From positions 1-64,000 of the forward strand of contig JAHOYT010000025.1 of the NCBI GenBank assembly GCA_019038645.1: a stretch of 64,000 bases of DNA, written 5' to 3'. The stretch's first letter is position 1. Each line of letters opens with the position of its first letter. Source of the stretch: Bacteroidales bacterium. GTDB taxonomy: Bacteria; Bacteroidota; Bacteroidia; Bacteroidales; UBA12077. The notes beneath the pieces are model-generated. The model made no database searches. It saw only the letters and a program-made list of their open reading frames with translations, and was not told where the DNA came from. Position numbers and translations under genes: made by a program. This document shows, in pieces, positions 25,309-30,478 of the stretch.

Positions 25309-25355
25309 GATAATATTGTGGTATTTTATATATTTACGTGACTAAATGTAAATTA

Positions 25356-25973
25356 ATGGGTAGAATTAAAGTTTTTATTTACTTCATATTTTTCTTAATT
25401 GCCAATAATGCAATTGCTCAGATTGATACGGTAACTTTCCAATTTGTACCGGACTATGCTACTTTTAGGATAAAATGTCATGCTCAGAAAGTTATTGCAG
25501 GCGACACTAGTTATTTTGAAATAACAGATACTTTAAATAACGCATATTCTCTTGATTGGGGAGGTGATATTGAGCCTGTAGTTGATGGTTTGCCATTGGT
25601 GACCTATGAGTTTTTAGCATCAGGGATAAAAACTTTTTCGTTGTCTGTTGTAGAAGATGCCACAGGGAAAACATTTACCGAAATAAAAACATTTGATATT
25701 CGTGATATTATCAGAGTTCCAAATGTATTTACTCCAAACGGTGATGGAGATAATGACCGTTTTGTTATCAATGCTAATGGTATTGATCCATTAGAAATTA
25801 CAATATTTAGTAGAACCGGTGCTATGGTTTTTAGTAACAAATCACCAATTATTGTATGGGATGGAAGAAATTCATCCGGTTCTGAATTGAGCGAGGGCGT
25901 GTATTATTATATACTAAAATCAGACGATCCTGCAGTAGCCGATCAAACAGGATTTATTCATATGTACAGGTAA
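25356..25973 (+). CDS. Small secreted PKD-like protein with T9SS type B sorting domain
   Basis: From the ATG at 25356 the product has 205 residues. It has a signal peptide (about 1-21, ending ANNAIAQ), a PKD-like beta domain (about 25-115, DWGGDIEP ... VTYEFLASGIKTFSLSVV) and the gliding-motility-associated C-terminal domain (PNVFTPNGDGDNDRF ... TIFSRTGAMVF ... WDGRNSSGSELSEGVYYY). That domain routes proteins through the type IX secretion system to the cell surface or outside. The frame is open back to a GTG at 25338. It is unusually short for a T9SS cargo: nothing but one domain and the sorting signal. Role unknown. Confidence 0.85.
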   Translation: MGRIKVFIYFIFFLIANNAIAQIDTVTFQFVPDYATFRIKCHAQKVIAGDTSYFEITDTLNNAYSLDWGGDIEPVVDGLPLVTYEFLASGIKTFSLSVVEDATGKTFTEIKTFDIRDIIRVPNVFTPNGDGDNDRFVINANGIDPLEITIFSRTGAMVFSNKSPIIVWDGRNSSGSELSEGVYYYILKSDDPAVADQTGFIHMYR

Positions 25974-27931: not shown

Positions 27932-29062
27932 ATGTTTGAAAGTTTATCACATTTAGTATTACAGCAATATTGGTGGATTATCATCTCCCTTTTAGGATCT
28001 ATATTGGTTTTCCTGCTTTTTGTGCAGGGCGGTCAAACACTGATTTATACTTTAGGAAAAACCGATATAGAACGTCGGCTTATAGTAAACTCTTTGGGAC
28101 GTAAATGGGAATTTACATTTAGTACTCTGGTTACATTTGGAGGAGCATTTTTTGCATCTTTCCCATTGTTTTATTCAACAAGTTTTGGAGGTGCATACTG
28201 GGTATGGATGTTAATCCTGTTTGCTTTCATTATTCAGGCTGTTTCTTATGAATTCAGATCAAAGCCAAATAATTTTTTAGGCGCAAAAACATACGAGGTT
28301 TTTCTTTTTATAAACGGAATGGCAGGAACAATTTTATTAGGAATAGTTGTAGCAACATTTTTTACAGGTTCCGAATTTTCGGTAAATGAAATGAATTTCT
28401 CAAAATGGGAAGGTGCTGCAAGGGGACTTGAGTTATTGTTAAATCCACACAATCTTTCATTAGGATTAGCAATATTCTTTCTGGCCAGAGTTCTTGCTAT
28501 CCTTTATTTTATGAATAATATAGATGATGAAAATATTTTTAAAAGATCGAAAAAACAGTTAATTTATAATGCAATTCCTTTTCTTGTATTCTTTTTAGTT
28601 TTTGTAATATGGTTAATGTTTATCAATGGTTTTGCCTATAATCCTGTAAGTAAGAACGTTTCATACGAATCTTATAAGTACCTGCATAACTTTTTACAAA
28701 TGCCATTGGTATTGATCATATTTGTAGTTGGAGTTGTTTTAGTTTTACTTGGAATTGGTAAATCGATATTCACAATTTGCACAAAAGGTATTTGGGTTGC
28801 CGGGGCAGGAACAATCCTGACTGTTTTAGCTTTATTTTTATTAGCAGGATTTAATAACACAGCATTTTACCCATCTACATTTGATTTGCAAAGTTCGCTT
28901 ACCATTGAGAATGCATCATCGAGTAAATATACGCTTAAGGTTATGGCCTATGTTTCTTTAATGGTGCCATTTGTGATTGCATATATCTGGTATACATGGA
29001 GAGCAATGAATAATAAAAAAATTGATGCAAAAGAAATGGAAGAGGATATCCACATCTATTAA
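27932..29062 (+). CDS. cydB: Cytochrome bd ubiquinol oxidase subunit II
   Basis: Second structural subunit of the bd oxidase, with eight to nine membrane helices over 376 residues. The N-terminal block (LQQYWWIIISLLGSILVFLL, then GGQTL) and the central FLGAKTYEVFLFINGMAG region fit the family. One base separates it from cydA. The C-terminus ends in an acidic cytoplasmic tail (DAKEMEEDIHIY). A 33-residue membrane ORF follows 86 bases later and may encode an accessory subunit. Confidence 0.96.
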   Translation: MFESLSHLVLQQYWWIIISLLGSILVFLLFVQGGQTLIYTLGKTDIERRLIVNSLGRKWEFTFSTLVTFGGAFFASFPLFYSTSFGGAYWVWMLILFAFIIQAVSYEFRSKPNNFLGAKTYEVFLFINGMAGTILLGIVVATFFTGSEFSVNEMNFSKWEGAARGLELLLNPHNLSLGLAIFFLARVLAILYFMNNIDDENIFKRSKKQLIYNAIPFLVFFLVFVIWLMFINGFAYNPVSKNVSYESYKYLHNFLQMPLVLIIFVVGVVLVLLGIGKSIFTICTKGIWVAGAGTILTVLALFLLAGFNNTAFYPSTFDLQSSLTIENASSSKYTLKVMAYVSLMVPFVIAYIWYTWRAMNNKKIDAKEMEEDIHIY

Positions 29063-29107
29063 TTATAGTTTTGAGATTTATTAACTCGGAACTTTTAACT
29101 ATAAACC

Positions 29108-29127
29108 AGTCTGCCGACAGGCAGGCT
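29108..29127. repeat. Short hairpin element between cydB and the small ORF
   Basis: AGTCTGCC and GGCAGGCT pair (one G-T wobble in RNA) around GACA. A related module, CTGCCAACAGGCA read on the minus strand, lies at about 37824-37838. It looks like a dispersed intergenic repeat module rather than a plain terminator, as only three T follow. Confidence 0.5.
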
Positions 29128-29148: not shown

Positions 29149-29250
29149 ATGTATTTAACAGAAATAATATGGTTAATTGTTTGGCCGGTATTGATTTGGG
29201 TTAGTTATAAACTTTCGGTTTTAGCAATAAAGAAATTTGAGAATAAATAG
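29149..29250 (+). CDS. 33-residue membrane protein, candidate bd-oxidase small subunit
   Basis: An ATG-initiated 33-codon frame ending in TAG at 29248. The product begins MYLTEIIWLIVWPVLIW, continues as a single hydrophobic helix to about residue 26 and ends in a basic tail (IKKFENK). Length, single helix, a proline in the helix and position behind cydB recall the CydX/CydS/CydH small subunits of bd oxidases, which sit on CydA and stabilise the hemes. There is no sequence identity I can claim. The start has no Shine-Dalgarno motif but an A-rich leader, normal for this organism. It lies in an otherwise gene-free gap. Confidence 0.55.
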   Translation: MYLTEIIWLIVWPVLIWVSYKLSVLAIKKFENK

Positions 29251-29362
29251 TATTTAGCATTCTTCAGTAACAAATTGATCCTGGCTGGCTTTAAACCTGT
29301 CAGGATTTGTTATAAAATAAATACTGAAATTCTCTATCTTTAACCAATATTTATGAATAGAA

Positions 29363-30478
29363 ATGACAAAACTTAAAAGTATATCAAAAATAAATACATG
29401 GTTCGATGGTTTAAACGAACCCTTAATTATTGCAGGTCCGTGCAGCGCAGAATCTGAAGAGCAGGTTATGCAAACTGCAAAAGAAATTAATGCTTTAGGT
29501 AAGATAAAGGTATACAGATCTGGTATCTGGAAACCACGTACACGTCCGGGAAATTTTGAAGGTGTTGGTGAGGAAGGATTAAGATGGTTGCAACAGGTAA
29601 AAAAAGAAACAGGTCTTTTAACGGCTGTCGAAGTTGCAAATCCGGAACATGCTGCTTTAGCAATTAAATATGACGTAGATATTCTTTGGATTGGTGCAAG
29701 AACCACTTCAAATCCTTTTTCAGTTCAGGAACTGGCAGATTATTTAAAAGCTTATGATAAACCTGTAATGGTTAAAAACCCAATTAATCCCGATGTTAAT
29801 CTTTGGGTTGGTGCATTAGAAAGGTTTCACAAAGCCGGAATAAATAAACTTGCCGCAGTCCATCGGGGATTTTATCCATTTGAAGCTACCACCTTGCGCA
29901 ATATACCAAAATGGGAGGTTCCAATTGAATTAAAGAGTATTTGTCATGATTTGCCCATAATATGCGACCCAAGTCATATTGCAGGCAATACCGAATATAT
30001 TCCTGAAGTGGCACAAAAGGCTCTTGATCTTAACATGGATGGGTTGATGATTGAAACTCATTTTAATCCAAAGCTTGCTCTGAGTGATATGAATCAACAG
30101 TTAACTCCGCAGCAATTAGGAAACCTTCTTGACAAACTGATTTTTAGATCGACAACTACAAAAGACACAGATTTTGCAGGTATTCTGGAAACATTGCGGA
30201 GTCAGATTGACTCTATTGATCAGCAAATGCTTGAACTATTATCTCAGAGAATGAATATTGTTGAGGAAATCGGAATATACAAAAGTAAAAATGAGGTAAC
30301 AATTTTACAGCTTCGTCGTTGGGAGAAAATTATTACAACAAGATTAAAACTGGGCAAGAGTTTAGGATTATCAGAAGATTTTGTAAAAAAATTACTTCAG
30401 CTTGTGCACAAAGAATCTATTCAAAGACAAACTGAAGTTATGAGTAAGATTGCTTCTTCAGAAATGAAGAACAAATAA
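29363..30478 (+). CDS. Bifunctional DAHP synthase / chorismate mutase (type II)
   Basis: Joins the first step of the shikimate pathway with the first step toward phenylalanine and tyrosine. Residues about 14-250 form a class I DAHP synthase of the short, KDO8P-synthase-like type (LIIAGPCSAES, KPRTRPGNFEGVG, WIGARTTSNPF, CDPSHIAGN). Residues about 272-360 form an AroQ chorismate mutase (LRSQIDSIDQQMLELLSQR, then KESIQRQTEVM). The fusion makes the synthase sensitive to prephenate in characterised relatives; that is expected, not shown, here. It stands alone, with the purS operon converging on it. Confidence 0.95.
   Translation: MTKLKSISKINTWFDGLNEPLIIAGPCSAESEEQVMQTAKEINALGKIKVYRSGIWKPRTRPGNFEGVGEEGLRWLQQVKKETGLLTAVEVANPEHAALAIKYDVDILWIGARTTSNPFSVQELADYLKAYDKPVMVKNPINPDVNLWVGALERFHKAGINKLAAVHRGFYPFEATTLRNIPKWEVPIELKSICHDLPIICDPSHIAGNTEYIPEVAQKALDLNMDGLMIETHFNPKLALSDMNQQLTPQQLGNLLDKLIFRSTTTKDTDFAGILETLRSQIDSIDQQMLELLSQRMNIVEEIGIYKSKNEVTILQLRRWEKIITTRLKLGKSLGLSEDFVKKLLQLVHKESIQRQTEVMSKIASSEMKNK

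Follow-up and report, generated by a model that had tools for sequence, protein, structure and literature searches.

A frame of 33 codons lying directly behind the cytochrome bd oxidase genes cydA and cydB of a Bacteroidales bacterium is a real protein-coding gene under strong purifying selection, and its product is probably an accessory subunit of the oxidase, the last product of a cydW-cydA-cydB operon. The gene was overlooked by gene callers and follows the bd oxidase genes in the majority of the environmental relatives. The features around it are listed in Table 1 with their positions in the window, i.e., the whole stretch of 64,000 nucleotides analyzed here.

Table 1. The cyd genes and neighboring sequence elements of the window
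Feature	Positions	Strand	Remarks
DUF4492 membrane protein, 78 aa	26136..26372	+	PF14899, E 6.2e-29; first operon gene
cydA, bd oxidase subunit I, 521 aa	26365..27930	+	PF01654, E 2.2e-168
cydB, bd oxidase subunit II	27932..29062	+	PF02322, E 4.3e-71; TIGR00203 above cut-off
Low-copy intergenic palindrome TCTGCCGACAGGCAGG, 16 nt	29110..29125	+	Between cydB and the small ORF
Small ORF, 33 aa	29149..29250	+	ATG to TAG; candidate bd oxidase small subunit (provisionally CydY/CioY-like)
Imperfect hairpin, possible transcription terminator	29278..29306	+	14-nt inverted repeat, 28 nt past the small ORF

The initial annotation had described an ATG-to-TAG frame directly behind cydB, and such a frame is indeed present, encoding MYLTEIIWLIVWPVLIWVSYKLSVLAIKKFENK, with its TAG stop at 29248-29250 and its ATG 86 nt past the stop codon of cydB. 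As judged by a seed profile and by the stretches that follow cydB in the relatives, similarity within the family begins at this ATG, and the codons of the open frame ahead of it are not conserved; an alternative TTG start at 29071, which would give 59 aa, was rejected, the extension being without conservation among relatives. The same profile set the homologues of the small ORF, short forward frames after cydB such as MTYLTEILWLISWPVLIWVSYKLSVFAIKKYDQTSDLDK and MYLESILWLLSWPVLIYISLKAVQYALKKYEHKLEEE, apart from everything else in those stretches. The initial annotation had staked its claim on a conserved frame at the same place in related genomes and on substitutions that respect codon position, and both were found: the frame recurs behind cydB in most relatives, and among 17 distinct sequences from the genus of the window heterozygosity at codon positions 1, 2, and 3 was 0.154, 0.081, and 0.403, respectively, with a mean dN/dS of approximately 0.09 (NG86). 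Relative to the window sequence, these carried 171 silent changes, against a mean of 64.8 and a maximum of 88 in 1000 trials of random placement, a large effect, although the count is no formal p-value because the pairs share ancestry.

Relatives were gathered through CydB, which had matches in 32 of the 39 nearest genomes, along with 80 loci from a public genome collection; the family profile (A1) comprised 67 rows. The genome of the window holds a single strong match to this profile, the small ORF itself. Order-wide, strong matches were present in 82 of 198 genomes and DUF4492 in 129, and 75 of the 82 small genes lie on the same strand as DUF4492 and 2.68-3.31 kb downstream of it, i.e., just past cydB. 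A frame of 33 codons is short and any stretch of DNA has many such frames, as a chance open frame would have it, but that explanation, whose probability we regard as negligible, is refuted by the silent-site bias and by this cydAB-linked recurrence: the small ORF is a gene because the frame recurs after cydB with the same sequence and its substitutions track codon position. Among the remaining seven copies, five adjoin cydB on contigs that lack DUF4492 or break off before it, one stands at a contig end, and one is an orphan. Nearly exclusive linkage to cydAB is the pattern expected of a bd oxidase subunit and supports that reading. The orphan counts against it, as the small gene of that genome (G383) lies away from its cydWAB, which is on another contig with no small gene there. 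The orphan copy, MYWREILWLISWPLMIWILHLIITSAINKYEDKTDNNKPKISD, occupies positions 2338-2475 of locus L326 on the minus strand, directly after a predicted lipoprotein/peptidase-like gene.

Counted by distinct full cydAB loci, the small gene is present in 131 of 195 and DUF4492 stands upstream of cydAB in 167; about a third of the loci are without the small gene, which is thus not universally needed. Across the 131 loci the median gap to cydB is 19 nt (range, 0 to several hundred) and the median length 39 aa, with an ATG at the expected place in 128, a figure to be read with the fact that ATG was favored when choosing the start. Presence is all-or-none: 49 genomes with DUF4492 had no match, and where the stretch behind cydB could be examined in them the best score was 5.2 bits, with no divergent copy. 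At least 16 changes fall on the CydB tree, and the gene has been lost repeatedly or has moved. Bacteroides, Parabacteroides, Phocaeicola, and Prevotella have DUF4492-cydAB with no trace of the small gene, in agreement with the report that no cydX, cydY, or cydZ follows cydAB in Porphyromonas gingivalis (PMC4668044). In a sample of 296 genomes of the phylum, only one other genome outside the order had a match, a weak one, and most Flavobacteria-type genomes were without the gene; the layout of DUF4492, cydA, cydB, and the small gene recurs in a single genome from a different order. A scan of IMG/VR returned two cydA loci, the full one of which has DUF4492 and cydAB and no small frame past cydB, and PADLOC gave no match. 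The proposal of a bacteroidetal counterpart of the known small subunits therefore stands as regards conservation and linkage to cydAB within the order, but not as a phylum-wide trait, nor for the gut genera tested.

The protein has one predicted transmembrane helix, spanning approximately residues 5-26, and a basic C-terminal tail, features that the initial annotation had already pointed out. The best conserved positions across 131 members are P13 (98%), I16 (93%), I6 (90%), W12 (86%), Y20 (82%), K28 (79%), and W8 (77%), with an S19-Y20 motif in the protein of the window, and members keep the key residues across approximately 40% identity. Because lysine and arginine are commoner behind the helix than before it in 124 of the 131, the N-terminus should face the periplasm and the C-terminus the cell interior, by the positive-inside rule. 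Such residue conservation, the silent-site bias, a gap to cydB that varies so widely, and the orphan copy of G383 together speak against a protein without function of its own, with the small ORF serving as a translated leader, as a coupling peptide, or as part of an RNA element at the 3′ end of cydB; the location of the frame between cydB and a hairpin would suit such a role, which is nevertheless highly improbable and close to refuted. A search of Pfam and NCBIfam with 67 members, at E values up to 10, returned no match to any family, including CydX (PF08173) and CydZ (PF10617), and a profile search of PDB sequences at the same limit returned none either, including the CydS and CydH chains, although chains this short can escape such a search.

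Matches to Pfam bear out the earlier gene calls for cydA, cydB, and DUF4492. The CydA of the window is of the long-Q-loop type and matches the E. coli bd-I chain 6rko_A over residues 9-517 (E 1.1e-132). The DUF4492 protein probably corresponds to CydW of P. gingivalis, a species in which cydW, cydA, and cydB are transcribed as one unit (PMC4668044). It weakly resembles the NCBIfam putative oxidase small subunit CydP (E 0.12, below the cut-off) and is nearly confined to the order of the window among the sampled Bacteroidia genomes. The initial annotation had placed a lone hairpin in the gap behind cydB, which has to be corrected, since a palindrome precedes the small ORF and an imperfect hairpin follows it. 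The genome contains the palindrome five times in exact form and always in the same orientation, compared with no copy of a reversed control, and its presence partly explains the 86-nt gap, compared with the median of 19 nt elsewhere. The stretch that holds the hairpin (29248-29330) has a fold z of -4.35, and a strict terminator scan did not call it; a terminator at this place would keep the small ORF within the cyd transcript, which fits one operon and co-transcription. The next gene downstream (29363-30478) encodes a fusion of DAHP synthase with chorismate mutase (PF00793 and PF01817), beyond which PurS and a CDP-alcohol phosphatidyltransferase are encoded on the other strand, and the gene preceding the cyd operon (25338-25973) encodes a protein whose C-terminal signal domain (PF13585, CHU_C) is that of type IX secretion.

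Several single-helix proteins of bd oxidases offer a comparison. CydX, AppX, and CydS run alongside CydA close to haem b558, and stable assembly requires them, while CydH, encoded outside the operon, occupies the cleft formed by helices 1 and 9 of CydA (PMC8951039). Operons with a long-Q-loop CydA are the type that carries CydX or CydY, the latter having been recognized by visual inspection downstream of cydB in long-Q operons that lack cydX (PMC4325964). The CydY of Campylobacter jejuni, renamed CioY, is a translated protein of 34 aa with conserved Trp, Pro, and Tyr that co-precipitates with CioA (PMC11955535). CydY/CioY, found in Epsilon- and Deltaproteobacteria, resembles the small protein in its one helix and its place after cydB in an operon that has a long-Q cydA and lacks cydX; Trp, Pro, and Tyr stand out in both, CioY being compared by its description only, and the difference lies in the phylum. 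Allen et al. noted that CydY-type operons also encode a small, hydrophobic, unreported protein ahead of cydA (PMC4325964, PMC11955535), which may correspond to DUF4492. CydX/AppX (PF08173, E. coli) shares with the small protein the position after cydB, the single helix, a similar length, the long-Q CydA, and a Trp near the helix start, but E. coli CydX (its sequence confirmed as that of PDB chain 6rko_X) is without the internal Trp-Pro. CydZ (DUF2474, PF10617) is likewise encoded past cydB and has a single helix with a Trp where the helix begins; however, it belongs to short-Q-loop operons (PMC4325964) and to a Pfam family that the small protein did not match. CydS of Geobacillus and CydH (YnhF) of E. 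coli are single-helix proteins of comparable size. DUF4492/CydW is small, hydrophobic, and part of the same operon, but has 78 aa, precedes cydA, differs in sequence, is represented in Pfam, and is kept where the small gene was lost. The helix, length, position, basic inner tail, long-Q CydA, and Trp/Pro/Tyr of the small protein thus fit the single-helix subunits of bd oxidases, CydY/CioY above all, and lend support to the initial proposal of a small-subunit candidate.

By analogy with CydX and CioY, the small protein, encoded last in an operon of cydW (DUF4492), cydA, cydB, and the small gene, would most likely bind CydA as an accessory subunit and stabilize the haem-bearing core of CydA during assembly, as CydX does in E. 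coli; CioY probably plays a like part in Campylobacter. Unlike the gene itself, the selection on it, its operon linkage, and its topology signal, the translation of the gene in the cell, the binding of its product to CydA, and an effect on assembly or activity are inferred, and, going by gene order only, the protein would belong to the oxidase complex and might cooperate with the DUF4492 protein. The top covarying pairs linking the small protein to the other operon products were scattered over CydA, CydB, and CydW, with no coherent interface (131 loci, approximately 89 effective). In locus L268 the frames of cydA, cydB, and the small gene are in phase, and an AlphaFold chain read through all three, with the stops read as Gly, recovered the oxidase fold (Z of 48-51 against CydA chains of E. 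coli bd) and gave the small-protein helix a pLDDT above 90, which says nothing about packing, since the helix modeled alone was equally confident (93). A real small membrane protein could also act as an assembly or regulatory factor, e.g., in haem insertion, quality control, or the tuning of expression, rather than as a stoichiometric subunit; the same genetics would be expected, the DUF4492 protein encoded before cydA could be the structural partner instead, and cydWAB is retained in lineages without the small gene. We consider this unlikely, given that the operon-end single-helix proteins studied (CydX, AppX, and CioY) are all bound to the oxidase (PMC8951039, PMC11955535).

In the literature searched, no bd oxidase small protein has been described downstream of cydB in Bacteroidota, and the authors of the P. 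gingivalis study state that they found none in that species; the small gene therefore either constitutes a family of its own or brings CydY/CioY into a further phylum. Supplements and subscription papers were outside this search, and an earlier report is possible. That it forms an independent Bacteroidales family, unrelated to CydX, CydY/CioY, CydZ, and CydS, within a five-part complex that includes the DUF4492 protein is a tentative and somewhat doubtful idea; if true, gut Bacteroides, Parabacteroides, and Prevotella would, with the loss of the gene, have come to assemble the oxidase differently or to tune it differently for trace oxygen. Cytochrome bd serves oxygen handling in many anaerobic and microaerophilic Bacteroidota. 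None of the solved bd structures matched by CydA in the PDB is from this phylum, and the small protein is probably a missing component when a Bacteroidota bd oxidase is expressed, purified, or modeled. The patchy loss of the gene offers a natural experiment on the function of single-helix subunits, and the layout of small protein, cydA, cydB, and small protein, common with Campylobacterota, suggests a greater age or a wider distribution of these accessory subunits than has been assumed.
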